64,000 bases of DNA, taken from the NCBI RefSeq assembly GCF_029227915.1, contig NC_079878.1:13082001-13146000 (forward strand), read 5' to 3'. Shown here piece by piece: positions 11,301-54,258 of this stretch. The first letter of the stretch is position 1, and each line of letters opens with the position of its first letter. Origin of the DNA: Hydractinia symbiolongicarpus (lineage: Eukaryota; Cnidaria; Hydrozoa; Anthoathecata; Hydractiniidae). The position numbers and the translations under genes were made by a program. Below the pieces are notes generated by a model. That model did no database searches. It was given only the letters and a program-made list of their open reading frames with translations, and had not been told where the DNA came from.

Positions 11301-14300
11301 CAACAAAACCAACGTTAATGTTTATGCGAAACTCTCTTGTGGAGATATTCTCTTTGAATGAAACCGCCACGTACCGTCATGCTTTTGTTTACATTCGTCA
11401 GCTGGCCATTCACTTGAGAAATGCTATTATGGTGAAGAAAAAGGTAATTTGTGTGCTGACATGCTTTTTTTATTGATTTTTTTCACCAAAGCCCTTTCCG
11501 TTGATTTTCCTGTAGCAATAATTTTTATCTTATTAATATTCCTATTATTTCACATTTAATAAAATGATGTCAACTTTGGTATGGAAGCCATTTTACACTA
11601 GGATCATGTGTAATACGTAGTCTCAATTTTGTTTTTACAGGATGCACATCAATCAGTGTACAATTGGCAGTTCATTAGTTGTTTACAGTTATGGGCACAA
11701 GTTTTAAGTGAATTAAATGGTGAAGTTTTAAAGCCTCTTATTTATCCAGTTGTGCAAATAACCCTGGGTGTAATCAGGTAGTGTGCTTTGCGGATGGTTT
11801 TTTTTCGTCTGGTGGGTTTTTGGAGTGTGGCTACTAGTTCGAAAAGTACCAATAATAAAATTGAAACTTTTTTTTACTTAGGCTGATACCAGCAGCGCGA
11901 TATTTTCCACTGCGTTTTCAGTGTATCAAATCGCTTAATGAATTATCCAAGAAGACTGGTGTTTACATTCCAATCGCTTCCTTAGTTTTAGAGGTATATT
12001 ATGAGAGCTTCTGACTCCCCGTCGTTTGTAATCAATTTTTTTGTGAAAGGAAGTGTGAGGAACTGTAGAAATTCAATTTCAGGTTGTTGAATCTAAAGAG
12101 TTTCAAAAGAAACCGAAATCTTCCGAAAAACCACCAGAGATTACTGGAGTTCTCAAACTTTCAAAAACACAATTACAAACCAAGGGTTTTCAGGTAAGAA
12201 CACAAAAAATTACTAATGAAACAACAACCACACTGGATTGTGATCCCAGGGTACAAAGTGTTTTTTATTTTCATTTATTTTTTGTCAGGATGTGACCATT
12301 GACATGGCATTTGAAGCCTTGATGGAGCATTATGTAAACCTTGCCAACTCTATCGCATTTCCTGAACTAGTGTTTCCAGTTTGTCGCAGGGTAAGAAGCA
12401 ATATTTTTTATCTTTGCTGTTTTTGGTTTTGCACAACAACGATGTTAACCTTAATTGGTTTAAAACAACGCACGCGATTTAATTTAAGTAATTGTTCTAC
12501 GGCTTTGTTTTTTAATTAGTTGAAGCACCTGGCCAAGGTCACGAAAGTGTTTAAACTCACTAAAGATGTCAAAGTGTTAATTGATAAGGTACGTATTAAA
12601 CATGGTTCTAAAGGATATTGCCTTTTTTTACTAAAATCGAATGAGTTCCCTCTTTCTTTGAGAAAGTATAGAACAACATGCTTAATATGATAGTTTGAAA
12701 AGGTTGGCTTAAAAGTAAGGTGAAAAGAAATTTACCAAAATGCGGGACAAGGTTAATTTTTTCTCCCACTTTTATAGCTTCAAACTCATTCAGTTCATGT
12801 GACGAAAGAGCGTTCGAAAGTAGCTTTCTCACCTAAAGATGTTGAAGAAGTGGTAAGGGTCCATTTTTATTCACACTTTTTTTCTTGATTTTGTATATAA
12901 AAAAGTGAATTTACATGCTTTCAAAAAAATAACGGAAAAGCTTGAAATATCTGAAAAAATCGAAAGAATTAATAAAAAAGCTTGTATACAATTGATATAC
13001 AACTGATACGTCCAATGTCAACTGATATAGGGATTCGAATAGGTGAGTCTTATTGATACCAATTCTTGACTCTAGGTGTAGTCAAAAAACACGGAATGGG
13101 CAACAGGGAAAATATGGTATATAATGAAGAAAATATCAGCGAGACAGCCCCTATGGCTGCTTGGTTCATGTTTGTACAAACACTAAATATTTTTTACTTT
13201 AAGGGTTGCATGCGTTGGGTTTATCGAGTGTAAATTTATATTTTGTTGTTGTTACTTCAGTAAAAAAAAGTCTAATTTAACTGGATTTTTTAAGTTCTCC
13301 TTCAGTTTGTTTTTGATGCTAAGTTCAGGCGAAATAAATAATTTTAAAGGGCGATTTCATCTATCTGGCATTGAAATTTCAAAAATTTTTGCTAAGTAAG
13401 CTCCAATCGTAGTGAGGCCTCCATTGTCACTTAAAATGAAAGAAAGGTTTATGAGTTTATAATTTCGCCCCTACAATAAAAAAATGACTACGGCTCTGTT
13501 GAAGCTTTATGAGAACTGAAAAGTCGGTAATCGAAACTTTTAATAGAAAGAACTGATAAAAAGCTAGTTTTTAAACACGTCGACGTGGTTTTTTAGAAAT
13601 ATGGATTTTCTGAAACAGCATGTACCACAAAATCTGTTATTGATCTTTTTGTTTGTTTAACATTTAGAGAGCATGGGAAGCCAAACAAAAAGAGCAAAAA
13701 AATGGCCTTGCTGATTTTTACGATACTTGGCAGAAAATGAGGAATATATCTGAAAAAAATGAGCAAGTTGAGAAGAAAGTGGTTAGTTGGTTTTTACTTA
13801 TATACCGTAAATAACGACACAAAACGTGGCGTTAGTAAAATACCAGCGACAAGTATAAGAATGTCGGAATTTGGTTGATATAGGAGAGTGAGGGAGGAGT
13901 GAGTTTGCGAGACTTATAGAGCTGATGTTTTTATTTTTAAAGAAATGTTTTGCATATAAGTTTGTAAGTTATGTGGTGATTCATCTCAATGTCTCACAAA
14001 CAAGTAGTCTGTCATTTTTTCTACTTCTAGCCTTAATTGAAAAGGAGGCGTTTATTGTGGAGTGCTGTTTGTTTAAACGGGTGTTATTTCGGTCATCTAA
14101 CTTAGACACTTTTTGGCCTTTTGGTTTTTACCGACAAAACTCTGGTTTTAAAGACCTCCTTTATGTTTAGGTGCCTGCGAAAAGAAAGAAAAAGAAAGGC
14201 ATTAATGAAAATAATGATAAAAAAGTAAAAACTAAGAAAAGGAAAACAAACGAAGGCGCACAAGTTTCGCACGAAGATGACATTATTGAGGACTTTATGT

Positions 14301-23155: not shown

Positions 23156-26100
23156 TTATTTCTCTTCTTCGCTCTTCTTCGTTTCTTCCGTTGAAGATTT
23201 CACTTTTTCGTCACTCTCCTTTTTTGTTTGCTTAGCATCTCCCCAACGATTATTTAGCCAAGCTTTGTGGGAACCGCCCTTCTTTTCATTCCCAAACCTT
23301 TCCCTTAACAAGGGAGCGATAAGATTCTTTAGCTTTTCCAAATCAGCGTCACTTACCGATCGTTCACCACCAATTATGTCTTCTTTTCTTCCCCAACGAT
23401 TTTTGTACCATGTGCTCGAGGGGCGTGACCTTATTGTGCGTGAAGACATATCTCTGCGGTAGTACGGTAGCTGGTTTGTGTCATCATCTACCGTTTCTCT
23501 TCCAAAGTAAGGTATGCTCTCGAGCTCTTTTCGGAAATATGGAATGGTTTTAGCCTCTTTTCGGAAATACGGTAAGGTTTCAACCTCTTTTCGGAAATAT
23601 GGAATGGTTTTAGCCTCTTTTCGAAAATAGGGCAAGTTTTCAGCCTCTTTTCGAAAATATGGTATTGTGTCAGCTTCTTTTCGGAAATATGGTATGGTTT
23701 TAGCCTCTTTTCGGAAATAGGGTAAGGCTTCCATTTCTCTCCCAAAGTACGGTATGTCGTCGCTTTCTCTGCGGAAGTAAGGTAACTTGTCAGCCTCTTT
23801 TCGGAAATATGGTAAGATTTCAGCCTCTCTTCGGAAATATGGTAAAGTTTCAGCCTCTTTTCGGAAATATGGTATGGTATTAGCCTCTTTTCGAAAGTAC
23901 GGCAATTCACTTGCCTCTTTTTTAAAGTAGGGTATATTCAGCGCCTCCTTTTTAAAATAAGGCAGTATATCGGCCAATCTTTTAAAATACGGTAATTCTG
24001 CATCTCTTCGGAAGTAAGGCAAATCATTTGTTTCTTTCTTGAAATATGGCAAATCAGCTTTTTTCTCCTCGGACGACTTTTCTAAAACTTTTGCTAGCAG
24101 CGATGATGCTCTCTTTAGTACGTCACTTTCAAGGGAAGACAAATCTTTATCAGCTTTTGTTGATTTTTTGAAGTAAGGCAAGCTTGACGATGCTTCGTCT
24201 AAACAAAAATAAAAGAAGTTATATTTCGCCGTCTCCGCGAAAAGGTCCTGGTAACGAGGTTGCAGAGTTTACAGAGTTAACAGCACAAATCTTGGATAAA
24301 GTTCCTTCGAATCAGTTTAACTCCAATGGCTTGCTCTTGATAACTCGAACCTATGACGGACCAAGAAAACATTTCGAGTTACCAAAAGTTCGAGTTATCA
24401 GGGTTCAAATTATGGGGATTATACTGCAATAGGCAACCTGGTTCCCAGCGTTTATTGTCTCTTTTTATATCGAGACATCGAGACAAATATCGTCGTCTCG
24501 ATGTAGGAAAAATACAACATGGCCTGGAGACGGGGTTGGGTTTCAGGTAAATCGTTTTTGAAAATAAAAATCTTTAGTTTTATGTCCAAAAAATTAAATA
24601 ACTTTTTACGAGACAAATAGTTTTCTATATAGCAATTAAATATTTCATACATAAATTGAAAATTATATACTCTATGCAAACTTGTTTTTGGAACTGTGTT
24701 TGTGATCTGAAATTGGAATTGGAAGCATTGGATTTTAAAAGATTTAGGAACCTTTCGATGGCGTGTCGACATGGGTGGTCTGTGCATGAAAACTTTTACA
24801 TCTTATACAATTGGTCACCAGTCGTTTTAAAAACCCAATCATGTATACAATTGTCTTTCATTACAAGAATATATTTGTTATTAATTTATATTGTCTATTT
24901 CAGTCGAGAGGCGTAACATGTAGGCGTGAGTTAGAAAGGTGGGCGTAATTTAAATTGAACTATTTCTTAGACGATTAATATTCTCCAAAAAGTAAAAAAT
25001 AACAACCTTTTGAATTTTGTTTTAATAAAATGCACTTCTTAAGGAAATGCGATAATGACTACGCTTTATTTCCACTTTTGCTTTTACAAACACAAAACAC
25101 GATACAACTAGATATTTCTAATAAATCTATTCTTCTCAATCTCTTTTTACAATCAGCTTTTTATGCTTACGCCTTGCTCAAACCAGTCGAGTCTCCATGG
25201 CAAATATTTTTATTGAATATGGAGACATAATTCTTAGCTGTTCTCACGTCATTAAATTCAATGTGGGAGGAGCAATGCGCCTCTGGCAGAAAACCTTTTT
25301 TTCAGTATTTTGCTTAGCGAAAAAGTGTGTTAGAAAAAAAAGCCTTGAAGTAGCCAACTGCATAGTAAAGCTCGATCTCTGTCATTGTTATTGACAGGTG
25401 TTGTACATTGCGAGTATTTCAAATTTCGTTTCTAAAAAACAAATTTCGTTTCTAGAAAAGCTGTAAAGGGAAGCAAGATTCTGTCCCCAATTTCGCCTTC
25501 ACTGGCCTTAAAATTAGCAACTTTCAAGATGCAGCACATTTCAAGGGGTGCATGAAACACAAAAGCTATTTTGAAATTCAATAAGAATTTTCTTGTCACA
25601 TGTAAAGATAATCACATTCGTCGTTGACAATAAATAACAATTTTTTACAGTAAAGACCACGCTGTGGTTTTTTAACCAGATGTAAAGTAATGACACTAGT
25701 TCTGAACCTAAAGTCGAAATACCAAAATACCAAGTAACAGAAATATGTTGTTTTTTGTTCTATCAATTTGAGCTGTAACAACGCTTTCCAACCAATGTTT
25801 AATAACTGCATGTAAGGTAGATAGATAATTAGAAACAAAGTTTTAACTAATTTTCTGAAGAATTATGATTAGTATCTGCATAACCCATATTTGACCTCAT
25901 GCAGAAACTTGTTGCCCAGGAAATATAATATATCTAATTTGTTTATTCCTATGGGTAGTAAAACAGCTGTAATGATAAGGAAAATCACATAATCAACTTT
26001 TTCATCCGCCCACACTCCTTTTTTTGTCGCCAGTTTTATCAACAAAGTTGTCTCCGTGAAATACTTCACGCGAAGCCTCTTTAATAAGTTCGTGGGTCAA

Positions 26101-28090
26101 ATATAATATAAAGATGGCATGGCCTAATGAGAATTTTTAACAAATGCAGGGACGTATGCGTTTTGCTTGTAACCGTAATGTTGCTGGTTTGAATCCCCTC
26201 TCCGGCTGCAGTGTTGTCAGCCCGTCTAGTGGAGCATCTGCAAAACTAATTAAGCAGTGCTATGTGTGCAGATAATGAAAAAAAAAACTCTCCGTTGCTT
26301 ACTGAAGAAAATATTACATTGCGGGCTGAAATAATCAGTCAGTTTATCTACGGGCCACTAGTCAGTGGCCTGTAGATAAATCCACGGGTTCGCCCGTCCT
26401 TTAGCGTGTCTTGCTACTGAGGTTACCATTTTTCGTGACAGACAGACGTATACGGGTACTGTAATATAGTTAAGGGCTGCCAAGTGTCTGGACCGACCAA
26501 AATAAGGGCCTATCAAAATAAGACTCGACTAAAAACAGATTCGACCAAATAAGGGCCGACAAGGTTCGTGCTGATGATAAGGCATGTAATGCTTGGCCTT
26601 GCATTATGTTATCATTGTTATCCTTTTACAGAAATGTCACAAAAACAAAATATTTTTACCTATTTGTTGGGAAAAACAAAGAAACGGAAAAGAAAATATT
26701 TGCGCTTCAAATTCGTTGCCAGTTCTTTTTCTGATTTTTTAGCAAACCTTGTGGCAAAAAGGTGAAAAATAGCTCCATGTGTGATTTTCAGTCTAAAATT
26801 AATCATGTTTTCGGTGTCTTTATCAAACAGTATTTTGTTATCAAAACTGTAAAAAAAAATTTTCAATGTGGCTACCAAAGCGACCACACATCAATAATGC
26901 GTAAGAAAGATTATTTTTGTTCTTTTCCTTTTAGAGTTTCATTCCATCTGTCGGTATAACCCGCCGTTAATACATTTATTTCAATGAGAAAATGTTGGGT
27001 AGCTATTTCGTTACTTGCTTTATACATTTATTTCTTATCAATGCCTCAAAAATTTGTTATCGTTAATATGAAGATCATGGAGCCATTACGTTTCGAGGTT
27101 AGATTTCCGTGCAGGTTATCTTTCAAAACCGAATTTAAATGGCGCATCAAAAAAGCACTGGAGACGAAGTTTAAGGTTGCGCGCTATCTAAGATACAACG
27201 ATGAGTAATGCTAACACGATTGATGATGATTGTTTTGTTTATTTATTTATTTGTTTACTAAAAGTAAATAAACTCAATTATCAAGAGCATGATGATTTCA
27301 TTTTTTCTTTCGTTTATAAAAATCAATACGTTTATAACAGAAAAAACGCAAGCAAAGTATTGTTACTAATTTTTGGTCTGAAATTTTTGGTTCTGGACAT
27401 GGTAATATTTTTACCCTCTTTTCCCCTTTACATTTTGTGGGTTATTTATATAGCATCATTGTTTCTTAAAATCGTGGAGGCGTTTTAAGCAATAAATTGT
27501 GACTGTTGAATGAGAAATCCCGTAATTGCCGACATGATTCTGTTTCACAAGGATTGCAAATGATTCACTAACACTTACGACGGTAGACAAGAGAAGAAAG
27601 TTACTTTGATGAATGCATGCCTTCCTTTTTAAGGATTAACTTCAATCAAGAGAAGTTATAAAATAAAAGGGAAAATATAATGGCGCCATTTTTTCAGCTA
27701 TTCCGTCTATATCAATATTATTGCTTAAAATTTAATAGCGGCCTGACGAAGAATATATACAAATATATACAAAAACAAAATTAAATTCGAAACCGCTTCC
27801 GCGAATTATTTTGCGAGCTTTATAGAGAGTCCACTGTGTTTTGACCAACAACTATTATATTGGTAACATAAAAAATAAGTTACACATTGTTTTATTTGCC
27901 TCGCGGATTCTGCTACCATTTTGTGCCACACACAGTTATTTTTCTGTTGTTGTCAATCAAAGAAGAAAATAACTAATACAAAAAGGTATTGCTGGAAAAA
28001 GAATTTTTTACCTTTAGCAGTTTCCTTTTGTTCAGTCAATCCATATAAACACACCACAACAGCAATGACGAACCATCTTGGAGCAGCCAT
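23156..28090 (-). CDS. Multi-copy [L/I]PYF neuropeptide precursor, two exons
   Basis: Exon 1 (28012-28090) starts at ATG 28090 and encodes MAAPRWFVIAVVVCLYGLTE, a classic signal peptide, then QKETAK plus one base before GTAAAA. Exon 2 (23156-24198) starts after TTTGTTTAG with the two bases that complete an Asp codon, giving TAK-D-EASSSLPYF; the total is 373 residues. The mature region has 21 tandem units, 20 with LPYF or IPYF and one LPYY, mostly 10 residues long. Most are followed by KK, RK, RR or KR, as for prohormone-convertase cleavage. Two units read IPYFGR, which would give an amidated end. The C-terminal part has WYKNRWGRK, a candidate RW-amide peptide, and a sister motif WLNNRWGD without a basic site. 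Secretion from neurons or gland cells is inferred. I do not recognise a named family. Confidence 0.88.
23485..24075 (-). repeat. 30-bp coding repeat array of the PYF precursor
   Basis: About twenty near-identical 30-bp units encode (R/K)(K/R)EAxx(L/I)PYF. The core (residues about 89-220 of the assembled protein) is regular at 10 residues; the outer units are irregular in spacer length. The other two frames are also open over long stretches because of the repeat, which creates a false frame at 23488-23910. Confidence 0.9.
26145..26270 (+). mobile_element. tRNA-derived SINE fragment
   Basis: GTTTTGCTTGTAACCGTAAT followed by a box-B-like GGTTTGAATCC and CTCCGGC matches the tRNA-like element at 61693, including the downstream TGTTGTCAGCCC. 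The 5' part with box A is eroded. It sits in the 3.8-kb intron of the PYF precursor gene, on the opposite strand. Confidence 0.65.
26343..26380. repeat. 17-bp hairpin next to the SINE
   Basis: Arms 26343-26359 and 26364-26380 pair over 17 positions with one G-U wobble and a 4-nt loop. It lies about 75 bp downstream of the SINE fragment, inside the PYF precursor intron. Confidence 0.65.
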
Positions 28091-31000
28091 TTTGGATTCC
28101 TTTAAGCAGCGAGCGGACATACGTGTTTCACCTAGCTGTATAACTCTTGTATTGAAAAAACTTGCTTACAATGGGTTACATATAGTTGTGTTGTGTACCG
28201 TCGGAAAAAAGAAATAAAAAATTGTTTGCTTTTCTGCCTTATTTAATTTCTTGCGATGAATAGAACTCATGCATTATACATGAAGCTTCCTGCGTGTAGT
28301 ATTATTCAAAGCGTAGCTGGAAATGATAGCTAATTTTATCTTTATGCAAGTGGGGAGACCACGTGATATAAATGTGACCACACCTATTTTCCTCCCTTTA
28401 AATTTATTTATTTTCAGGAATGCCTTGAACACAGCTGGGGATAGAGGATGCACTTGTATTTGCAGCGTGATGAGTTTTTGTAACCTTTGTTTGGAAGTTT
28501 GGAGCGTTGTCGTGAAAATTTTCAATGGCTCTCCACCCAGCTGACTTATTGCACAAAGTCATCGTGTTGGTGCACTCTAAAGACGTATTTAACTCCCGCG
28601 TAGAAGTGCTCTTTTGCGGCAAAGAACAAAAGGTAGTATAAAAGCCACAAAGTATTAATTTCATATTTTTAATATAAATTTGATCCGTCTGATGAATTTT
28701 TCGAGAATTTTTTTTTTTTTTTGACAAATTAATTTAGCGCTTCTATAAAAACAAGGAAGATGTTTTTAAGACGTATATTTCATGCTGTGTCTGTTTTTAG
28801 GATGTTGCATTACAACTGAGAAAGGAAATGAGAGAACAATACAATTTGTAGTAGGTTCCACCTGTTCAATTTTTTCCCAATATTAGACACCATAACTTTT
28901 TAAAAACGAATGACGAAAAAACAATTTAATACCCAGACTGTGTACAATTAAAATTCCGTTGAAAAATATGCAAGACTTGGGGAATTAGATTTCAAATACG
29001 AAAATGCTAAGGCATTACACTCAGCCTGCATAAATTGCCTTAGTAGTCTTTTGACAACATCAACATAATCCACAGGTGTATCTGAGCCTTGTTTTCAAAC
29101 AGGGACAAACTAAACTGTAGCCACATATGTTGAACATGATAAAGAAGATTTAAAGCCACAAAGGAACAAAAATGTGCGTCACTTAGAAGTAGTAATCCAA
29201 GGAAATGTATGCTAGCTATAACCATGAATAATTTGAATAAAACAAGAATTTACTTTTTTTAAGGAATAACTCATCAATCGAACCCCAACCCGGCACCCCT
29301 CCATTTTAATTTAAAAAATTTATCCTCTGAAATCTTTAAGGGATTAGAAATCGTTCACTTAATACTTGTCGAAGTACTTTTTTTATTCGTCGAAAGTTTT
29401 TTGTTTTTATTATTTATAGGAAGAGTTCTAAAACTTTCTTATACTCCACCCAAATTTTTGTTGCAAAATTTTTTTAATTTTGTTGGAAAATAAATAAATT
29501 TGTCAAAATAGACGTGTTTTTTGAAAAGTGGATGCAAACTGTTTTTGACCGTTTTTTACTTTATTATTTTGAATTAGACAAAAAGCTACAGAATTAGCCG
29601 CCATCTTATCTATGGAGTTTTTTTATACTCAGATAAGCTTTTTTTTGGTTCCAACAATTTTTTTTAAATTTGCTTGCTCCCTAGCTACTAAATCGATTGC
29701 ACACAGTTTCTAAGGGAGAAATTTATAAAGTGTTTAACCGTCGCACGATTCAGATATTTAGATAACTTTTTTTAACCTCACATAAAAAAAATCACTGCTG
29801 TTGATCGTGGGTTTGCATCAAGCATTGTTTCAACCTACGTTTACGAGAAAACAAACAAACAACAGCTTTTTCTTTTATAAATTACGTGCTCGGAAAGCAA
29901 GACCTCTCGCTGTTTTAGATTGGCCATGGAAAGCACGAAGCAGTAAAAAGGAAGACAATTTTTTTGAAGAACGTGCAACAATATTTCCAATCTCAAAAGT
30001 TGAAAAAGATAAAGTAACAAGAAATTAAATCTATTTCGTGTCCTATTATTAAATTAATCTTTTTATCTATTTCTTTATTTTTTCCTTTTAATTCCATTTA
30101 AGTTAAATGTAACATGAATCAGAGAATAAAACAGCTGGATTTTCACGGGAGAACAGAAAAGGCCCAATTAACACGGAAATAAAATCGCTTAAGTTTTATA
30201 ATTAGCTCCTCTGAGAAAATCCATGTGGTAATCTCACATAGTTTACGAAAGTCAATTATCGTTCGGCTTTTATACTGTTTTATATTGTATGTTATCGACT
30301 TGAATCTTTAATTTCAAAAACTCTCCCTAAGATCCTTCTTTTCCTAAATTTTTTATCCTGGTGGTTTATCTTTGTCTAAAATTATAGCCTTTTGTGTGAG
30401 TTGGTATAAAAGATTAATGAAAAACAAGCAAAAAAGAAAAACAAGCAATCTAAAATTCCCTTTTTTACTTTTGTTTTTATTTTTTTCCATTCTTCCACTT
30501 TACTTTATTTTTTGCATCTTTTTATGCCAGTAAACTAAAGCAAAGACATATTGATTCTTTGGGAGGCGCTTATTTGAGACGGGACGTTTGGAGTCTTTTC
30601 TTAAAATGTGGTAAAGGTGCATTTGAGTCATCACTGTTTCTATTATCCTATTTGGAGCCATAAGTACCAACAGACCCATGCCGTAATATTGCTCTTTCTG
30701 CTTCCGGAAATTCCGACAACCACGTCACAAGTTTTTTTGTTTTAAAGGAGAACTAACGATTTATTCGTCTTTTTTTTTGTACTAAAACATCTTAAAGACA
30801 ACAGGTGCGTTAATTTGCTAGTTTTGAAAACAACAGTTCGATGAGGAAGTCATTTTGTGAAAGCAAACCAACACAAAAACAGTCTCAAAGTTTTTATTTC
30901 TGAGCCTGTTTTTGCATGTCAAATTCGTGGAAATTCATTTTTTTACAAGGATGTTTTTTCTACTAGAATTTAGCTTCTATTCTTCATTGCTCGAACCTCG

Positions 31001-31543
31001 AGACAAATTTAAATCACTAAAACAGAGGAAAAAGTGACGGAATCTTCATCCATCGTCTTGCAAATCCTGTTGAGCTATGCACCATGTGTGACGTCACAAA
31101 TCATCAAAACATGAGCGAACCAAGCTGGCTTTTGTTTGATAATGGCGGCGACCGTTAATATAATTATCAATTTTTAGGGACAAAAATTAGACACAAAAAA
31201 ATAAAAAAATATGCCTTTTTATCCCATGTTGTTTTCGTGACATGTAAGAATGTTTTAATTATAAAACAAGAAGCCCTGGGGGCTCTAAGAATTTCCGCTC
31301 GCTACCAAAATATTTGATGACAACCTGCTAATTCGTTGTGTTATCGTGCCAAACATTCGAAGAGGTTTGGTTTATGAAGCTCTGAAGATAAAGCACACAA
31401 GTTACATTATATCTTACAACAAACGCAAACAAAACGAAACGTGTCATAATAAACTCACATTTTAAAAGAAATTGCTAACAAAAAATACAGCCTATCATTC
31501 ATGGTTGAAAGTCTTGCGATTAAAACGTTTATGGTCTTAAACG

Positions 31544-32010
31544 GCATTTAGGTGGCAAAAAATCAAAATTTTGATGTGAGCATCATTTTCGGCATACTTT
31601 TTTTATTAACTGTGCCAATTTTTGTCGAAAATAAAGTAGTTTTAATTTTTGGACAAATTTTGGCCTGAAATGACATTTAAGTGACAAAAAATCAAACTTG
31701 TGTATCATCATCATTTTCAGCATACTTTATTTGTTAACTGTACCAAATTTGGCTGAAAATGGCATTTAGGTGGCAAAAAATCAAAATTTTGATCTCACCA
31801 TCATGTTCAGCATACTTTATTTGTTTACTGTGCCAAATTTTGTTGAAAATAAAGTAGTTCTAATTTTTGGACTAATTTGGCCTAAAATGACATTTAGCGA
31901 CAAAAATCAAAATTATGATGTCACCATTATGTTCAGCATACTTTTTTTGTTAACTGTGCCAAATTTTGTCGAAAACAAATACCAATTTTGGCCTGAAACG
32001 TCATTTACTA
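31544..32010. repeat. Four-copy tandem repeat, 93-126 bp units
   Basis: Units begin near 31544, 31670, 31763 and 31888 with (G/A)CATTTAGGTGGCAAAAAATC. Each continues through ATCATTTTCAGCATACTTT and TTAACTGTGCCAAATTTTGT. Units 1 and 3 also share GAAAATAAAGTAGTT...AATTTTTGGAC, so a higher-order dimer period of about 220 bp is visible. The short frame at 31770-32018 is only the repeat read through. Confidence 0.85.
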
Positions 32011-32190
32011 GTACTTAGGGAGCTTGGGAAAAGTACGAAGTTTAAATCTGTGACGTTTCAATTGACCATTTGAGACAGGGTTAGTTAGTTAGTCAGGTAT
32101 ACCAATACATCCTTCTCTCAGAGGAACGTGAAATCCCAGGGTCGATTTTTTCTCAAAAAATGCTCCGAAAGAAAAAAACGACGGTTTTAA

Positions 32191-32221
32191 AGAATTTCCT
32201 ACGCCTTCGGGCGCGGAAATT
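32191..32221. repeat. Short hairpin with UUCG-type loop
   Basis: GAATTTCC and GGAAATTC pair around CGCC-TTCG-GGCG, which would form a stem with a stable UUCG tetraloop in RNA and two mismatched positions between the stems. No adjacent RNA-gene motif was recognised. Confidence 0.45.
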
Positions 32222-32844
32222 CAATAAAAACATATATGTAGGTTTTACCGTTAGTTAGTTCTTCTTAACAGAGCGGCTGCCGAAGTTGAGAGTTTACGGC
32301 TCTGAAAATGCGAGGAACAAAGACGGCGATATGCAGCAATATGTAGTTAAAGTATGGTAAAACCATAGTATTTGGACAAAGCATTTCATTAAAATGAAAG
32401 AAAAGCCTCACACACACTCCTGGTTTGAGATTTAATTAATAACTCGAGGATCAGACGCAAACGAACCCATTTTAAACGAATAAAAATTACGCGTCAAATA
32501 GTAGTTTTAGATAGTAGTTTTAGTAGAAAGAGAGGCAAACGCCGAACTAGCTAAAGTCTTAATCTGCACCTGTACTCGATTAAGCCCCTGGGCCTTATTT
32601 GTCGCAAATGATTTTAGAATATATTAATTGTTGTCAATACACAACTATGACAGTTACTGGCATAAAAAAAGGTACCGCTACCAACATATGCATTCCCTCA
32701 AATTAAAAGTAGGGGTTTATCTGTTAAAATTTCTTTTAAGGCTTGTGACTTATTCAAAGGAGAGGCTTATAGGAAAAAAGGGTTCAAGCAAACCAACAAG
32801 AAACTTACAGATGCAATGCTATATGCACCTCAGCATTAAACAAT

Positions 32845-32915
32845 GGCGGGGAGAACAGTCAACCGTTAGGGTGAAACCTCCGAGAATGATATAATTTTCC
32901 GTTACTTACTTACGT
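32845..32915 (+). mobile_element. SINE tail fragment
   Basis: GGGGAGAACAGTCAACCGTTAGGGTGAAACC...CCGTTACTTACTTA parallels GGGAGCCAGTCATTAGGGTGGAATCC...GCGTTACTTACTTA at 62145-62205 over about 65 bases. The shared 3' end ending in TTACTTACTTA marks one repeat family. No tRNA-like head is present here. Confidence 0.6.
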
Positions 32916-33577
32916 AGATAAATAGCAAGAAATGACGTAAACAAATAAAAACAAAATGTTTCATAAACATTGAACACTTTCTATGTTTGTTTCTACTTCA
33001 AGTCCAGACAAATATTTTTATGGAATATTTAAAAGTGCAGAGGATAGAAGAAGGAAAGGTATGTTTGCATAAGATGCATTAACAACTAAATATTGAAAAG
33101 GCAATAGGCACCAATTCCAGGGATAATTTGCTGGTTTCCTCACGACATTTTTTTAGATAAAACATCGCGTATACAATATGTCTGTCCGCATGGTTAGTTT
33201 TGGGTGGATTTTACGTTTGTTGTGGAGGGTCTTGTTCGCATTTCATATCTAAAATAGGCTGCGCTTAATCTCTTAGCTGCGAGGTTGTATGATGTTTTTC
33301 ATCACACCCTTTGAGTTTAACATTGATGATACACGAAATATATACATCAATATAGTTTTAGTTGCAAAAACCCAGTCTAAAAGTTAAACAGATTTGATTA
33401 CTATTAAAATTTGCGAAGAAAAAATAGTTCCCAGGGCATTTTATATTCTTGATTGATTTAACCGCTAAGCAACGGTTCAGGGTCCAAGAACCTCCGGGAA
33501 TGAGGATGTTGGAACGCAAGTAACTTTAACTGAAAAAAAAATTATAATTTTTATTTTAAAATTATATTAGTAAAGAC

Positions 33578-33606
33578 CTTTGAGATAAAACTCGTTTATC
33601 TCAAAG
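33578..33606. repeat. 12-bp perfect hairpin
   Basis: Arms CTTTGAGATAAA at 33578-33589 and the exact complement at 33595-33606 with a 5-nt loop. No neighbouring gene feature explains it. Confidence 0.55.
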
Positions 33607-35821
33607 AGATCGGGGTTCGAGAATGTCCTAAGATCTTAATATGCAACAGAAAGTATAAACGACCGATAAAACAGAGTACGTTACATGTCCATATGTCCAT
33701 ATTACTGACCCCTCAAACGATGTTGGTACACTATCTGCTCCACACTGCGCGCTAGTTTAATCCTTTTGGCTTAGAATCATTATCATAAAAATTATTGCGT
33801 TATCGTCGGCGTACATTTCCCCAAAATGTCCTGGAAACGAAGCTGGCAGTGCGCTTGCTTATAAATATAGTTATTTTTTTCAAACCTCGTCCCAAGGGGA
33901 TGTTAAATTTTTCAACAGAACCATCTGACATAAAGAATCTACCAAGCTCTGAAAACAAGATTGTATATTTTCTGATAACATCTCTAACCTTGGTTGATAC
34001 TAGAAACCGAAAAAGGTTGGCAGAATCTTCAGTACTAACACCATGTAGGGCATACACCATGTAAAATTGTCAATTTTTTTATCGTTAATCCCATGCAAAA
34101 CATTATTGTTTACACTGAAATAATAAAACCTTCCCAAAAAATATTTCTTTGAGGATTTGACATGAAAACTATTGGATTATTTTTACGTAGGACGTGCGCG
34201 TTTCATATCCTCAGTAAACTACAATAATGACACTTAATTACAAGAAAAATTCCACATTAGAAACAACTTTGTAATGACAAAACGCTCGTACACAAATCTA
34301 ATACATAGTGAGCGTAATATTGTAGAAAAACACCATGGTGGAGAACGCTAGGAAATAACTTCACAGTAGAAAAAATAGGTCATAAAAATTCGATATGGTA
34401 ATGTGTATAAAAGATATTGTTTTTGTTAAGCGTTTAGAGAAATTGATGTTTACATCAAACGTTGTTTAAAATTAAAGTTTTTGCTTTACCTTAGGTATTA
34501 TATATTACGAGGATTTTTGTTGTAGCATATTTTATAGACCATGGTTATAAATTGGTTGAACAAGTAGAAAAACTTTTCGAGTATGGCGTCTTTTCCTTCT
34601 CAGGAATTTTGGACAATGTTTAGGCTTAACCTATAGGCAACATTTGCTGCGTCAAGCCAATATCGGCTATAGTTGAGTTAGCACCTTTTGTTTACGTGGC
34701 GTAGTGACAGAACATTTTGCTAGAAAGATCTAGAAGGATCCAGAATGATCTAGAATGTTCTCCATATCCCATTACTGCTTAAAGTTCAACATATCTTGTA
34801 GTTGATTCATTGGATATAGTATATACAAAGAAAAGTAAGTACAGACATGACAAGTTTTTTAAGGGTACATTTTGGATTAAAATATTTTTACTGCTGTTTC
34901 TAATAAGCCTTGTATATTTCACTGCGTTTGTCTACCATATTTGTTTTTATTTTAGCGCAAAACAGCGCGTCATTAGAAAGTACGTAATTATTCACGAACG
35001 TCAATTTTTATTGGATTGGGAAATTTTATTAAGCTTGAATAAAGTATTATAATTTTAAAGTAGTTTCGCTTTAACAAGATCTTGCTAAGAAAAAGAGTTG
35101 TTATAAAACGTTAAAACGTTAGTTAACGACCAGTGAAAATTTTCGAAATGTTACTTTTTGTATCAAGCTTTTTAGAAAATATCATACGGAAGCTGTTCAA
35201 CGTCGATCCCGAAGCATCAAGAAAGAGATCTGGATACAAGATTGTGCAGATGTTATTGCCTCTATCTTTAGCTACTTTTCGTTGTGGTTTATGAACACTC
35301 ATTAGTAATTCAAATAGTGAATTTTGAGAATAGCTTTTCACAAACATTTATATGGTACAATAAGTTAGCACAAATATTAATGATATTTCTCAAAAAAATA
35401 TCAAACTCGTTCTCAGAGCCCCTTACTTTAATGTTCGAATCCCCGTCCTAATTTCAGAGAAGATACAACGTGCACTGGGGACGAAATTGAACATTTAAAA
35501 TAATATTAAGTCGTACGAAAAAAGATTTTTCATCGTCTTCTCTCATTTATAAAAAAGACAAAAACCCTGGGGACGATGGTGCAATGATTTAGTTATTGTA
35601 TATGATTTTTTGGAAAATAAAACTGGGAAAATTAGTTGAAAAAAAATTCCACTGGGAAAATATTTCGAGACAGTTCGTCAATCTATGAAAATTGAGTTTT
35701 CTCAGTCTATTTTGAGGTTATTACTTTATTCTATTATTGTTTCATAGAAAAAAATACTGGAAAAGGATTAACTAGAAAATAAAATTCCCTATTTCTCTTT
35801 TTCTTATCAAACTATGTTTTC

Positions 35822-35831
35822 TTTCATTTCA
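35822..35831 (+). promoter_or_regulatory. Splice acceptor just upstream of the paracaspase ATG
   Basis: A pyrimidine-rich run ending TTTCATTTCAG stops 17 bases before the start codon. As the CDS has no introns, it must serve either a 5'-UTR intron or spliced-leader trans-splicing, which is known in hydrozoans. The choice between them is inference. Confidence 0.5.
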
Positions 35832-35848
35832 GTAGTAAAAAAATAAAC

Positions 35849-37990
35849 ATGGCAGGCACGGAGTTAATAAAATCGCTTTCTGACAGTGTATGTTGGAGAA
35901 TAGCGTCAAAACTAGATCGAAAGGAATCACCAAATTGGAAAGCGCTAATTGAACAAATAAACTCAACAGCCAAGACATATAATGAAAAAGCTATTTTGAA
36001 ATTTCAACTAGCGATATTAAAGCCACACGGTAGCCCAACATTACAGTTATTAGAAGATTTAGGTCGAAAGAAAAAAACTGTCTTGCAGTTAATAACATGG
36101 ATGAAAATGTTAAAAGACTTTCCAGATCTTGTCGAGCTGTTGGAACGTGGCGAAGATGCTATAAAATTATCAGCACCTGCCATTATTACACAGCCTCAAT
36201 CTGAAGTATACGTGGTTGGCGAGATCTTGCGTATGTCGTTTGACGTTCGTGGAGAAAATCCTTTAAAGTTTCAGTGGTTTAAGGGAAGCTTGGAATTGTC
36301 AAATCAAACCATGCATGTATTAACATTGACAGATCTACGAATTGAAGATACTGGTTTTTACATTTGTAGAGTTTCAAACGAGTATGGGTACGTTTTTACA
36401 GATTGGGCAAAAGTTGATGTCTCCCATACACCTTACCGTGAAACATTCAATGAACCCGTCATCACAATGCATCCTCGATCAATGACCTATGGATGTGGGG
36501 AGACACTAACATTATACGCAGATGCTGTGGGAAATCCAGCACCTTTTTTGCAATGGTTTCTTAACGATGAACCACTGTTAGGGAAATGTCAACGTGAGTT
36601 AACTATACCGAATGTAATGCTTGGCGAACATGATGGTTTATATAAACTGAAAGCTTCCAATAAACATGGCTCCGCCGTGTCATTACCAGCTCAAATCAGC
36701 ATAGGTAAATCCGAGCGTGTTGAAATACCAGATAAACCTTGTATAGGTAGAAAAGCAAATGTTAAGGGGCAGACGTCAGGCCGTGGGCCCGACGTTGATG
36801 TTAACGACACTGGTGTGTCGATCGTAGCACCTAATATGCCGTCGGAAAAATTTGCCTTGGTGATCGGTAACCAAGACTACGTCGAGCATGACTCACTTGG
36901 TCAGCTTGTTCACCCAATTAACGACTCATATGAGATTGCAGCAGCGTTGATGAGCATTGGGTTCAAGGTTGTTTCACTAGTTAACTTGGATCTTGATTCG
37001 ATGAAAAAAGCTGTTCAGTTTTTCTGTAGTTTGCTGGATTCTGGCTCGTATGCTCTCTTTTACTTTGCTGGGCATGGATTTGAAGTCGATGGAGAGAATT
37101 ATTTAATGCCTATTAATGCAACGAGTCATTACAAACCATCAGAAAACGTTTCACTTTCTAACGTGTTAAAATCAATGACCGGTGGCCCCGAATTACCCAA
37201 GTTAAATGTTTTGTTACTCGATTGCTGCCGAACAGAACCAGACTTTCTCCGTAAGGATCCCATACCTAAGCTGTGGCAACAGCAACGTAAGAACGTTGTC
37301 ATTGGTTACGGTTGCTGCTCCAAAGGTCGTGTTTTAGAATCTCCGATGATGAAGAATGGTTATTTTGCTCAATGCTTAGCAGAAAACATAGTCAAAGAAG
37401 TAAAAATTGACGATGTTTTGTTCGAAGTATCTCGAGCAATACATCAAGAACGGATAGTGGACCCAGCAACTGGCCGTACGCAGGTAGTTTACCGTCACAG
37501 TACCGTAGTAGATGAGTGTAAACTGACTGATCTTTCTAAATCGCAAGCCAACTTAACCGAGAAACCACTCGAAAAGACGTTACTATGGCAACAAGCTCAC
37601 AAGGCGCCTATGTCCCCTGTCACCATCCTTGACAACGAACTTGGAACTGTCAAGCTGATCTTTACAGCGCAATTTTCGAACTGCTTGCTTATTCAAAGCG
37701 AGGTAAAGCCGAATCCAAACACAACAGCGTATAGTGTAATGTTTATTTTACCGCAAACTATTGGTGGAGCGCAAGTTGAGATTATCACGCCAGAGAAAGA
37801 TGAGAAAGTCGAAGATAAAGTTGTGCGCATCTCACGGCTGGAATATTTGGAGGGCGATATAAATATTCACGTGCAGGTGCAATTTGAAGTCAATGGCGTC
37901 TTGCAAAATCAAGCGGCGTTTTATAGAATCACAGAGAAGCCGCTCTATGCAAAAGTTTCTGATGAAATAAAGCAATTAACATTGAAATAA
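35849..37990 (+). CDS. MALT1: MALT1-type paracaspase, intronless, 713 aa
   Basis: A single uninterrupted frame encodes a death-like domain (about 5-100), two Ig domains (about 112-192 and 203-287), a caspase-like protease (about 332-555) and a third Ig-like domain (about 583-705). That is the order in vertebrate MALT1. The catalytic His is H409 in FAGHGFE and the nucleophile is C460 in LLLDCCR. D359, D458 and E497 align with the acidic S1-pocket residues that give MALT1 its Arg specificity, and W580 (LLWQQAHKAP) aligns with the tryptophan joining protease and Ig3. The long C-terminal tail of human MALT1 (about 824 aa) is missing. In mammals MALT1 works with CARD and BCL10 proteins upstream of NF-kB. 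A splice acceptor, TTTCATTTCAG, ends 17 bases before the ATG; AATAAA follows at 38002. The lack of introns is unlike every neighbour. Confidence 0.95.
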   Translation: MAGTELIKSLSDSVCWRIASKLDRKESPNWKALIEQINSTAKTYNEKAILKFQLAILKPHGSPTLQLLEDLGRKKKTVLQLITWMKMLKDFPDLVELLERGEDAIKLSAPAIITQPQSEVYVVGEILRMSFDVRGENPLKFQWFKGSLELSNQTMHVLTLTDLRIEDTGFYICRVSNEYGYVFTDWAKVDVSHTPYRETFNEPVITMHPRSMTYGCGETLTLYADAVGNPAPFLQWFLNDEPLLGKCQRELTIPNVMLGEHDGLYKLKASNKHGSAVSLPAQISIGKSERVEIPDKPCIGRKANVKGQTSGRGPDVDVNDTGVSIVAPNMPSEKFALVIGNQDYVEHDSLGQLVHPINDSYEIAAALMSIGFKVVSLVNLDLDSMKKAVQFFCSLLDSGSYALFYFAGHGFEVDGENYLMPINATSHYKPSENVSLSNVLKSMTGGPELPKLNVLLLDCCRTEPDFLRKDPIPKLWQQQRKNVVIGYGCCSKGRVLESPMMKNGYFAQCLAENIVKEVKIDDVLFEVSRAIHQERIVDPATGRTQVVYRHSTVVDECKLTDLSKSQANLTEKPLEKTLLWQQAHKAPMSPVTILDNELGTVKLIFTAQFSNCLLIQSEVKPNPNTTAYSVMFILPQTIGGAQVEIITPEKDEKVEDKVVRISRLEYLEGDINIHVQVQFEVNGVLQNQAAFYRITEKPLYAKVSDEIKQLTLK

Positions 37991-39929: not shown

Positions 39930-42900
39930 TTACCAAGACAAAAGAGACGCGTGTATTACAGGAGATCCAGGCTCTAAACGAACAAACATGTTACTTGCCT
40001 CTTTGGGTGGTGGACGTCCCAACAGATTTGTCATTGGTAAACCAGAAGCTGGTTTTCGATGCGGAATTGCTGGAGGAAGTTCTCCATTTACAGCTATCAC
40101 TGGTGGTTTAGGTGGCACTCTAAAAGGAAACCAGAAAAGCTTTCCGTTATTACTATCTAGTCGACTAAACTCTCATAGACTCTGGTGACACAGCCGAAGC
40201 ACAAGAAATACTTCTCTTCAAACAATTTAAAATATTCAGGATAGATATAAATACAGGTATAAAAGATATTATAATTAAGTAAACATTGCAATAATAAGCA
40301 AACGAACAAACCTGTGAACTATTGGTGGTGGAGTATCAGACGATGACATTTGCAAAGGTGGTGGTCGTTGCCGCCTTTCACTGGGCGTATCAGGCGTTCT
40401 TTTTGATGTGCTACAGCGCATTTTAACATCTGCAGGCTATGGAAAAGAATCGTGGACAAAAATATATTTAGTGTTGATTATATAACAAATTTGTTTGTCG
40501 TTTTGTCAATCTTGTAATATCAGTTCCAGCTTATACGCAATCTATAGGTCAAAAACTTAGGTTTACTGGAATTTCAGGAAATAGGTCTCCAAAAATAATT
40601 TAAAAAACCTTCAAAATTTAATTACAGAACCAGAGAATAATTAACAGCATAATCTGTGTATGTAAAAAAAAGACGCATTGCATACACAGTAAATACGTGT
40701 AATCCACCTACAAATAATAAATGATTCAAAACTCCAGAAAAATGATATTTACAACAACTTTACAACAAAAAGAAATCCACTGCTTACAGGTGACATGCTG
40801 CGAAAGTTGTGCTCCATCTCTACATAATGCGCTATGGCCAGATAAATAAATTTGTATTGGGCCTAAAAACAGATTAAAATTCTTTTAAAGTAAACGTATA
40901 TGACATTTCATATAGAACAAAAGTATTGATTTATAAATCAGAAATATTACATGAAGTACCCTAAAAACTTTAGGGTATAAATAACGCACCGGTAGATTGC
41001 TATAGAAACCACTTAGCTGCCGATCCAATATTCTTACAACAGTGCGGAATACACAAGGAAAGTGTAGTGCCCTTTGTTGGACCAGAATTCTATAAACTCG
41101 TGAAAAAACACTGAATGATACGGAGTAGCGATATGGATATCTGCTGACTCGGTAGTACTATGGTCATTTTAAGTCATGTGAATTGGAGTGAGAATAGTTA
41201 CCTCAAGTTGCACCATTCCTGCTCTTTGTGTGCGGACATGCTGTACAGTTTTCTGCACATCAATCTCACAGTCAAGACCTAGAAGTAAATAACACTTAAA
41301 AAAAAAGAAAAACTGTACAAATATACTCTCGCGCATAGAGTTACACTTTTAAAAAGCACTACTAATCGCAAGCAAATTCTTATTAACTGGCATGGAATAT
41401 CATAAAACTGCTTGTTTCACCTTGTTTTTGTAGAATCTTTACCAAAATATCAATCACCAGAAAAGCAGCCGTCCTTCCAATACCAGAGCTAAAAACAGAC
41501 AAGCAGTTATTGAGATTCGCCACGCTGATCAAAAAACAGGGATTGGGATTCTAAAGCAATCTGTTAATGTTTTTTACAATGTTATTCAATTTGCATGTGT
41601 AATAAGCAAAAAAAACAAACTTATGTTTCTTTTAGGGTTCACATTGCATCTTCAGATTTTATTCTCATATTTAAAATTGATTTTAATCTTGGAACATCAT
41701 ACACAGAAAAAAATATATAAGAATCTCCAAGGAAATTTTTCATTGTATTTAAAGCAAAGGTCATTTCTAATCGAATCACATGTTCACTTATTCGCGACCG
41801 AAAACACTAACTTTAAAGTGAAAGATAACCTTTCCTAATATTTAGTTTACCTGCAATGAGCAACTATGGGACCAGGGTAGTTGTTCGACTTTTGTTTCAG
41901 ATTAATATCATGCAAAATGCCAATTACAGAGCCTACATTTGATGGTGTACCATGTTCAGGCCATCCAATATACTGGTAATGATATATGGTATGTTCTCCT
42001 TCTTCTGGCTGTAAATAAGTTCGTTTAAAAAATGATAATTATGAAGTTTTCACACTAGCAAGGGATCCGGACAAGGTACAGAATTTTTAAAAAAATGATT
42101 TCATGACTTCCCTGAAAATCATCCCAACTTTTTTTCAGACCATGTTTTGGAGTTTTTACTAATTTTCATTCCACTGAGTTGACGTCTTAAGTTTACCAAA
42201 ACACACACAAAATTAAACACAATATATACTGACTATGCAATAATTATAAGAAAATAAGTAATAAAGAAAATAACTAATAACAAAGATATGTTTCAAACAG
42301 CAGTCAAAATCAATTACCTCGTCTCCATTCGTTAACTTTAATTCTCTGTAAATGAACTCTTGCGTTTCAGTCTCCTTACTATTGAATATAGTGAAGTTTT
42401 CGACCTCCATAGATAAATCGACATCTGGCCAATATTTTGCACACCGGCTCTGAATAAAAAAACAACAACACACGTTGGCATTTTCCAAGATTTTTTTTTT
42501 AAATTTAGACATCATTAAAACCAGTCAAGGCCACCTACAAAGTTGTAAGACTATATAAAGCCCAAAAAAGCCTTAAAAAAGTTAAAAAACTTTACTTGGT
42601 AAACAGAATAAAGAAAATCCTCTGGTAAGATATTTTTTTTATATTTTGTTGCCCCTTCTTTCACATGGAAATAAAATCGCCATGGACTGCACTGAAAACC
42701 ATGTCTGAAAAGTGTTAACTACTGACACGGTTGATAAAACTCACAAAAACCAGCTTTCTATCAGATAGGCTAAGTATTTGTTTTCAAAAAAAGCTCTTTT
42801 ACCTTTCCACGTTCTACTTCCCGAGTTATCATCAAAATCACACAACTATTTTCCTGATACACCATCCTCCAAAAATCATGTATTGTTTCTGCCAGTGGAC

Positions 42901-45900
42901 CTTGTGTTGCAATATATTCATGATCACTCTCCCCCTGTAAACAAAAACATATGTATTTTGACTTTAACAATTTGACAGATATTCTTTTACTTTTTTCCTT
43001 CGTAAATCTATAACTAAATATGGCAACTTGAAGCCTTCACGTAATTAATTATTTAATGCCAACAACACTTAAAGAATATTATGATAAAATAAAAATATGC
43101 AGCCAGCAACATAACAACGTAATAAAGTCAGTACTTTGACGTAGGAGGCATTGATATAGTCCTGCGTAGGATCATCAGGATCTCCATCCAACAATTCAAC
43201 TCTTGTATGATCGACTACATAAAATGAAAGTAAAAAACAAATACATATCACAAAAAAATAAAATCTTATAAACATTTTTTTGTTGAAATTAAGAAAAAAA
43301 TACCTACACGGAACAATATTTTTAAATCTGTTTTTAATTTTGTTTTCTGAGGACAGTCCCACTTTTCTACTATACCGATGTTTACATTCTTGTTGTTGTA
43401 GTTGCTAAAAGTAAACAGATACGTACTGGAAAATATATACAGGAAATTCAAATTTTAAAATTCTCAGACTGTGACGTTTTTGGAGGGAAGTTGTCCAGGG
43501 GGAATTGCCCTGTCACCACTTAGATGAAAGTGCGGTGATGTGGCTTTTATTCACCAAGCCTTTGGAGGTAAACTAGTATCTCTAGAAGTGAAAGTGTACA
43601 CTTCTGAAATAAGGAAAGTATTATACCTCAAATTCTTCCCAGAATCCATCTTTGTTTGGTACTAATGGAGTCTCCCTTTGCAATTCAACAACCCGGTCAC
43701 CAATAGACGATGCTGTTATTTTAGTTGCATTAAAAGGCTAAACATAATTTGTAAATTACTTTGAAAGTATACAGAATTATACGCTAAAGTTTTAAACATG
43801 GTGGATGCAAAATTATCCAGTATTCCTTGGTTCTAGAAAAAATAGTTGTCACATTTCTTGATTAAACTGTAAGCTGGGAAGAGCAAATCTGTGTAAACTA
43901 ACTTAAAATTAAAACATGTTAGGAAGCCCAAACATCAGAATAAAATGAACAACCCTGTAGTAATATACAGTAATTTCTTTCCCATTCTTTTATAATCAAA
44001 AGTGTACGAATACCTGTTTTAAGTGCACTACAGTGCCACCATTTTTTTCTACCATAGGATTTTGCCGATAATAGTCAACTAAGTCAGTGATGGTTTCGAA
44101 TACCGGTCCTCCACCAATATCATACTTGCCGTCAACATTATAAATCATGACATGCAAGACAGTTTCATCAGATCTAAATTAGGGAGAAGTTCCCCAATTT
44201 ACCAAATCTAGACTTCAGAAACGTGCATCAAAACATGTTAAATATATCAAGATTATTTGCTTACTTGATAGTCAAAACGTAATCGCCAGGCTTGCTTACA
44301 CTTTCTCTGACTAAATAACTGCCATTCTTGCCTTTATCAAGCATTAATCTTTCTGCAACCTTACTTGACATATGACCGTGAAACCATCTTCAATTATAAA
44401 TTAAAAATGCAAGAAATGTAATGAATGTTACTCAGTATGCATATTTATCTCAGGGCAGAAACCTTAGCAGATAAAAGTTCCTGAATTAGTTCCAAGTGGA
44501 ATATTAGTGAGGTATTTATCATACCTTTCAGATGTAGGGTCTTTACAGTTCAGTGGATATAAAAGTTCTATAAGCTCTCCGTTTTTTTCTCGCAGCTCTC
44601 TTTCCATGTAATATTGGATAAGCTCTGATAATGTAGAGAAAGGCTCACCACCAGGCAAATCATAATAATCTCCATGGTTTTGTATTTTTATGTGAGTTAC
44701 ACTGTTGTTTCGTCTAAAAAAAGAAAACTCATCGATTGGCAAATCATAAGTCACTTCGAATGGAAAATGAATACTGTAAATACTTTGAAACTTAACCCAA
44801 AACATATGCAAAAAAAGTTTTGAAGTATTCTAAGGTATGTTCAATAATTTTTTCAGTTATATTGTATTAATCTTGAAAATTCACACACATGGAACAACAC
44901 CAAAATGCCAACCAATTTTCATGTTTTTTAAATTAGTAAAAGCAATTTTGAAAATGTTTGAGGCAATTTTTATTCTAAAAATAAAAAAAAATAGAAAGAA
45001 GTTTTCCCAGCCATGGTTATTTTGAGCTGTACTTAAATCACCAATTCTCCATGTGAGATAGCAATTCTAAAGCCACAGACATCTCTTTAACTGTGCAATT
45101 ATTAACAGCCTATACATCTACATGCAAAATAGCATTTTTCATTGGAATAGATGAAAATTCCAACCTCAGTTAGTGAAGGAAAAATATTGATTTTGTTCCA
45201 GGCCAATATCCTTTTGCAAGATTTCAGCTTTACGCTTGTTATTTTTATATATTTTTAATGTATATAAGGCTTTTTTAATTTAAAAAGCTGCTTTATAAGT
45301 TGCTTGCTAAATTTGGTCAGTTGATTTCAAATTTTTTTGTCAAACCCTTGGTTGAATATGTAGCTTCTACATGTTTTCAATACCATACAATGGTAATTGC
45401 TGCATAATTTTCAATCTTTTTTATGCTGTTGCATAGAACAGCTGCTAGGATATTTAAAGCAGAAAAATCCACTCAGGCAGAAGAACAATACGAGATATGT
45501 CATTTAAAGTAGAGCTTATAACTTTGTATCAAAATTTAAATGACTTTGTATCAGATTAAATTAAAGCTTCAATCATTGATACAATTACTTTAGGCAAATG
45601 GTTGCAAAGGGTTTTATGGTTTGATGTTTCAACTTTTTTTTTTCTAAATGTGCAAATAGCTCTTTAAATAGGAATTCTTGCAAAGCAAATGTAGATGGTG
45701 ATTTTACTTTTTTCAACACTGATCCAAAAATCAGCAAAAACAAACATTACCATACCTCACAGAAAGTGTAAAATCATTTTTGTTTGTTGAGCTAGGTCTG
45801 CATAGAAAACTACCATCTCTTCCTCTTTCCATAAGCAGTTGCTCAGCTTCCTGCCCTGTTATGTTTTGATGAAACCATCTAGAGAGGTAGCAACAATATG

Positions 45901-46038
45901 TATCACATAACTCAGTAATGCAATAGAGAATTAGAAAAAAATTTAGAGAGGGTCTGAGCAAAGAATAAAAAATATGTGAGCTATTACTTGCTACATAAAT
46001 TGTATTAAAACATAAATAAAAAACCTTCTGGATGTCAT
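39930..46038 (-). CDS. PTPN11: SHP2-type protein tyrosine phosphatase (PTPN11/corkscrew), complete
   Basis: Sixteen exons in frame: 46025-46038, 45756-45878, 44525-44713, 44265-44387, 44014-44173, 43627-43737, 43308-43404, 43135-43214, 42803-42934, 42318-42449, 41851-42008, 41421-41488, 41202-41278, 40788-40862, 40312-40436, 39930-40119. The product is 617 aa (human about 593). Exon 1 encodes only MTSR plus two bases of the next Arg, and the assembled start MTSRRWFHQN is nearly identical to human SHP2. N-SH2 spans about 6-102 (phosphotyrosine Arg R32 in FLCR), C-SH2 about 110-215 (R136 in YLVR), and the phosphatase about 240-510 with HCSSGIGRT (C439, R445). D61 and E76, which hold human SHP2 closed, are kept. 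Unusual: WPE (E405) replaces WPD, and the proline-rich tail has no tyrosine. It should act in the cytosol downstream of receptor tyrosine kinases in Ras/ERK signalling. Confidence 0.96.
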
Positions 46039-54180: not shown

Positions 54181-54258
54181 TTTTCAGGGAAAATAAACAA
54201 TAAATTATTGAGACATTTGATAACAAGTTGAGCTTAATGTTGTTGTGAAAAATACGAA

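Follow-up and report, generated by a model that had tools for sequence, protein, structure and literature searches.

Cnidarian neuropeptide precursors are described as carrying basic cleavage sites only C-terminal to the peptide, with acidic residues, N, S, T or other residues before it, and their peptides as having an N-terminus protected by pQ, XP or XPP, trimming being assumed to be performed by unknown aminopeptidases (PMC8638164). Here we describe a predicted secreted precursor built of repeated LPYF and IPYF units (the PYF precursor), encoded on the minus strand of a 64,000-nucleotide stretch of the Hydractinia symbiolongicarpus genome (assembly GCF_029227915.1, contig NC_079878.1, positions 13,082,001 to 13,146,000; hereafter the window). 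As far as its sequence indicates, the PYF precursor fits these cnidarian hallmarks: all 21 units begin with an XP start ([LI]P), preceded in 16 units by one of D, E, N, S and T and in the remaining five by one of I, K, A and Q.

A non-amidated mode of short hydrozoan peptides has precedents. Non-amidated copies are reported inside known cnidarian precursors from scyphozoans (PMC6909153) and in Hydra preprohormone C (PMC8638164), and Hydra LW-peptide precursor A yields peptides without an amidation glycine. A bioactive LW peptide, which contracts Hydra, is to its authors' knowledge the first non-amidated one in Cnidaria; these peptides are named for LW and not PYF, and have no homologues elsewhere according to the same authors (PMC12440616). 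The very short peptides of the Hydra PW family, such as Hym-33H (AALPW), share the Leu-Pro-aromatic end and are printed without an amide (PMC4346854, PMC7266959), but they end in Trp and are described as epithelial, whereas 21 of 21 window units end in PYF or PYY.

The nearest published gene by motif is from the hydrozoan Clytia, where cells of the planula GLWamide cluster express a gene in which IPYFAN recurs several times, ahead of dibasic-like sites and without glycine (PMC12225738, 2025). IPYF repeats are common to this gene and the PYF precursor, in which six IPYF and 12 LPYF units stand directly before a basic pair. However, when the two are compared by motif description alone, the Clytia repeats have AN after PYF, whereas AN follows 0 of the 21 window units and a basic pair or GR is found instead; homology of the two genes would be a hypothesis. 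The initial annotation called the PYF precursor undescribed-looking, an assessment that now has to make room for the Clytia gene. No named PYF peptide family was found in the open-licence literature as covered by main texts and, in part, by titles and abstracts, where the Clytia paper was the one relevant study. The string "PYF" is absent from the main texts of PMC12440616, PMC6909153, PMC7523074, PMC6756747, PMC9545775, PMC8638164, PMC9525235, PMC13004499, PMC11087051 and PMC6402141, and a PYF-ending family is unnamed in the literature covered.

Structure of the PYF precursor

When recomputed, a predicted GT-AG junction on the minus strand links exon 28090-28012 to exon 24198-23156 without a shift of frame, giving a 373-residue protein (Table 1). 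Exon 2 sits in a 370-codon open frame (24268-23156, minus strand) that ends at a TAA stop codon (23158-23156, minus strand), and its GC content is 0.403 versus 0.341 for the predicted intron. Mean Kyte-Doolittle hydropathy peaks at 2.86 over the 11 residues from residue 8 (residues 8-18), and the best value beyond residue 30 is 0.57. An upstream in-frame ATG at 28120 would make the N-terminus 10 residues longer. A thresholded scan of 24199-35780 (minus strand) for alternative first exons gave four candidates at two places; the one at 32970 is weaker than exon 28090-28012 on hydropathy (2.15 versus 2.86), with an equal donor score.

Recomputing the repeat array reproduces the original count of 20 LPYF or IPYF units plus one LPYY in mostly 10-residue units, with 16 of the 21 at a spacing of exactly 10 residues. 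A predicted basic cleavage site is present C-terminally in every unit. The dipeptide after PYF is RK in 10 units, KK in four, RR in three, KR in one and GR in two, while LPYY is followed by RR. A dibasic pair had been described behind each unit, and this holds for LPYY and for 18 of the 20 PYF units (12 LPYF and six IPYF), exactly the 18 reported to have the pair directly after Phe, but not for the two PYF units that carry GR. The inter-unit spacers are mostly acidic or neutral, and 11 of 20 read E-A-x-x.

An amidation glycine precedes the basic site in only 2 of the 21 window units and in 0 of the 11 units of P0001, the one relative found (see below). Because of this scarcity, the PYF precursor is classed as a mostly non-amidated variant and not as an amide family, in support of the earlier proposal of a cnidarian multi-copy precursor with mostly non-amidated products.

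Selection on the PYF core

Chance does not account for the motif: [LI]PY[FY] occurs 21 times, whereas in 20000 shuffles of the residues from position 27 on it averaged 0.023 and never exceeded 2. The array can also be detected in the DNA, where it repeats at a spacing of 30 nt, as would be seen in a minisatellite with one frame open by chance and no functional protein behind it. The codons argue strongly against such an origin. In the 16 in-register units, PYF codons depart from the consensus at 0 of 96 first and second positions and at 21 of 48 third positions (Fisher p = 2e-12), whereas 28 of 128 first and second positions are changed in the spacers (p = 4e-8 versus PYF); both p-values are indicative only, since units within one gene may exchange sequence and are not independent lineages. 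For the PYF codons of these units, the nonsynonymous proportion (pN) is 0 and the synonymous proportion (pS) 0.743, and all four Pro codons are in use. Over 23434-24198, the five other frames contain 5, 22, 9, 14 and 9 stop codons, whereas the coding frame contains 0, and a second precursor exists. A minisatellite artefact is therefore almost inconceivable, and we reject it on the codon pattern.

The ratio of nonsynonymous to synonymous change (dN/dS, Nei-Gojobori) is lowest in LPYF (0.04) and rises through the E-A pair (0.14) and the two spacer residues after it (0.69) to 0.85 in the basic pair; since dS is near saturation in several classes, these values are reliable only in their order. Because changes in PYF are confined to codon position 3, the PYF peptide itself is under purifying selection while the spacers drift.

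A second precursor and database searches

Among approximately 5.8 billion proteins searched, a single relative emerged: P0001, a 227-residue protein from a 774-base contig in ENA (E = 6e-25). It contains 11 LPYF units, each directly before RR, KK or RK and none before glycine, with spacers of 1 to 6 residues. P0001 is probably cut short, because its last 14 residues resemble what we take to be a translated sequencing adapter. Judged by its repeats and spacers, it is a distinct second precursor, from another species or a paralogue. The search with the PYF precursor, which scored 7049 candidates at E up to 1, and one with a two-row profile, restricted to the 7997 candidates with the most words in common and to E up to 10, gave P0001 only, under exact-word, length-limited scoring that can miss relatives of the IPYFAN type. 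Since only length-limited proteins sharing exact words were scored, an absence of relatives elsewhere cannot be claimed. In Pfam, every match to the PYF precursor or to P0001 fell short of the curated cut-offs.

Two other sets of candidates were set aside. Pattern matching returned 234 hits on viral contigs, none of which was confirmed, and a weak match on a Leifsonia plasmid (E = 1e-3), near a ParA gene and outside any gene listed in an incomplete gene table, was taken as chance.

RW and RF motifs in the C-terminal part

The initial annotation described the PYF array correctly but left unmentioned two WxxNRWG motifs downstream of it. The amidation site of one of them, WYKNRWGRK, is complete. 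Both copies lie in the C-terminal part of 98 residues, and among 200000 shuffles of that part WxxNRWG arose once in 10 and twice in none. The same part holds one ERFG, and four RFG motifs lie in the N-terminal part of P0001, so that both precursors combine PYF units with R-F/W-G motifs, at different places.

Hydrozoan GRFamides (e.g., pQWLKGRFamide) are likewise multi-copy, and WLKGRFG is similar to WxxNRWG; however, GRFamides end in RF, whereas the main window units end in PYF, 19 of 21 without glycine (PMC8638164). GRFG[KR] is absent from the PYF precursor, and a six-frame scan of the window for [GNSRK]R[FW]G[KR] returned only NRWGR at 23401 and a stray SRFGK at 44212. An origin from a GRFamide precursor, as the WxxNRWG and RFG motifs might suggest, is only a lead. 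Anthozoan LRWamide precursors have a single-copy RWamide right behind the signal sequence (PMC7523074), unlike the PYF precursor, in which the only complete RWG site (residues 290-298) is far from the signal segment. G[LIM]WG or PRxG followed by a basic residue, as expected of GLWamides and PRXamides, is absent from all six frames of the window. The main units thus match no GRFamide, GLWamide or PRXamide motif and do not end in RW, in line with their original placement outside the named families.

Predicted products and function

The PYF precursor is most probably a secreted multi-copy cnidarian prohormone. After splicing as predicted, the signal peptide would route the preprohormone towards secretion, cleavage behind the basic pair of each unit would fall to a prohormone convertase, and a carboxypeptidase would remove the basic residues. 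An aminopeptidase may then trim the spacer from the N-terminus until halted by [Leu/Ile]-Pro. The expected main products would be 18 X-Pro-protected, free-acid LPYF or IPYF tetrapeptides (or short N-extended forms), accompanied by IPYF-amide in two copies and by a single LPYY and a single RW-amide. We hypothesize that these peptides are released as signals, most likely neuronal, and act on a putative receptor.

The short Leu-Pro-aromatic products also invite a different comparison, with an epithelial secreted precursor like that of the Hydra PW family, whose short peptides restrain neuron differentiation. AALPW has the same kind of end and is amide-free in two reviews (PMC4346854, PMC7266959); PW peptides are termed epitheliopeptides, and their preprohormone is reported as strictly ectodermal-epithelial. 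An equivalent role here is unlikely, since the window units end in PYF and not PW and the Clytia gene closest in motif sits in a neural cluster (PMC12225738). In addition, a 2026 paper writes "PWamide", which leaves the free-acid parallel open to doubt.

The repeats combine basic residues with aromatics, which would also suit a secreted product with no signalling role (for instance in defence, in a gland secretion or as a structural repeat), in which the basic pairs are not processing sites. KR and RR are more canonical cleavage pairs than RK and KK, and 14 of the 18 direct sites in the PYF precursor are RK or KK, their processing being a prediction. Against this, both precursors keep a strict PYF core beside a basic pair while their spacers vary, a pattern resembling a series of cleavage units, and in 2 of the 20 PYF units the pair gives way to GR, as expected of an amidation site. 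A non-signalling product is therefore quite improbable, even more so than an epithelial peptide of the PW type.

Several observations nevertheless weigh against a peptide prohormone. First, the preponderance of RK and KK among the direct sites is a mild weakness, and the basic pair varies among K, R and GR, at the dN/dS of 0.85 given above. Second, hydropathy is the sole basis for calling the signal peptide. Third, the single relative is incomplete, and there is no clear alignment between it and the PYF precursor outside the repeats. Finally, a 2025 pipeline reported new Clytia precursors, including QQ-, KIM-, MLS- and LT-peptide repeats, and "PYF" is absent from its main text (PMC12440616).

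If the PYF precursor does encode a prohormone, it may belong to a hydrozoan-wide free-acid PYF family with the Clytia IPYFAN gene as its ortholog, its peptides being co-released with GLWamides from larval neurons that control settlement. Such a family would represent an old non-amidated transmitter system largely missed by amidation-keyed searches, with an amidated RW-type relative in the same precursor in Hydractinia. This broader proposal is tentative, and we consider it possible without favoring it.

Features of the window

Table 1. Parts of the PYF precursor gene, with positions in the window.
Feature	Position	Strand	Remarks
Exon 1, coding part	28012..28090	-	Start codon, hydrophobic signal-like segment, phase-1 donor; translation MAAPRWFVIAVVVCLYGLTEQKETAK
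Predicted intron, 3813 bases	24199..28011	-	Donor CTAAAG/GTAAAA, acceptor TTTTTGTTTAG/ACG
Exon 2	23156..24198	-	All peptide units, C-terminal part, stop codon; open frame and translation
Four irregular N-terminal units	23978..24181	-	LPYFKK, LPYFKK, LPYFRR, LPYFKR; 37-residue stretch after the first
16 in-register units	23498..23965	-	LPYF or IPYF with basic pair or GR; residues 105-260; unit starts 105 to 255, spacing exactly 10 residues
IPYFGR, predicted IPYF-amide	23738..23755	-	Residues 175-180
IPYFGR, predicted IPYF-amide	23498..23515	-	Residues 255-260
Variant unit LPYYRR	23453..23470	-	Residues 270-275
WYKNRWGRK, predicted RW-amide	23384..23410	-	Residues 290-298; complete amidation/cleavage site
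LRERFG	23291..23308	-	ERFG-N-E (cf. ERFG-K-E in P0001); ERFG.E once, 7 of 200000 shuffles
WLNNRWG, second WxxNRWG copy	23240..23260	-	No obvious cleavage site, as DA comes next
Two AATAAA polyadenylation signals	22995-22990 and 22987-22982	-	About 160-175 bases 3' of the stop codon

The window also contains an open frame for a MALT1 paracaspase (35783-37990, plus strand), with 735 uninterrupted codons, Ig and caspase-like domains and apparently one exon. Its best match, P0002, is 97% identical, and the next matches are 44-55% identical, including a TCONS-named protein, which we take to be Clytia-style naming; Hydra vulgaris reaches 47%. A 24-row tree places the window protein, P0002 and the TCONS protein in a supported set of 11 that Hydra and P0013 adjoin, and hexacorals and bilaterians fall outside the window/Hydra grouping. 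By this gene, the window is cnidarian and most likely hydrozoan.

On the minus strand at 42213-46081, four open frames match, in minus-strand order, SH2 positions 1-43, SH2 positions 40-77 and two tyrosine phosphatase pieces that score close to the Pfam cut-off. The two SH2 pieces are possibly one domain, and the frames perhaps represent a split SH2-phosphatase gene. On the plus strand, a RhoGEF domain piece is found at 61162-61467 (E = 1.5e-9) and a Noc2-like piece, slightly under the Pfam cut-off, at 12244-12519 (E = 2e-6). The open frames 54238-54984 (248 codons) and 57043-57711 (222 codons), also on the plus strand, have no Pfam match at E 0.001, and the first has no sequence match in PDB at E 0.1. 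A 122-nt direct repeat is present in three copies at 31539-32004, the other two sharing 89% and 66% identity with the reference copy.

Significance

At least two surveys of cnidarian peptides depended on amidation. One hydrozoan survey used a script that keeps open frames with at least three GKR, GKK or GR sites, together with TBLASTN searches with known sequences (PMC8638164), and a Nematostella peptidome excluded non-amidated peptides from its reduced database (PMC6756747). Under the three-site rule, P0001, with one GR, fails, and the PYF precursor passes only by way of its two PYFGR sites and RWGR.

Overall, the locus looks like a genuine peptide precursor that is under selection and of a recognized kind, with an uncommon, mostly non-amidated product that has barely been described. 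A selected, multi-copy and mostly free-acid core in two precursors, together with a gene of Clytia larval neurons sharing its motif, suggests that a class of signals is under-counted by amidation-keyed methods. Concrete tetrapeptides are now available for synthesis and for tests on settlement, contraction and orphan receptors.

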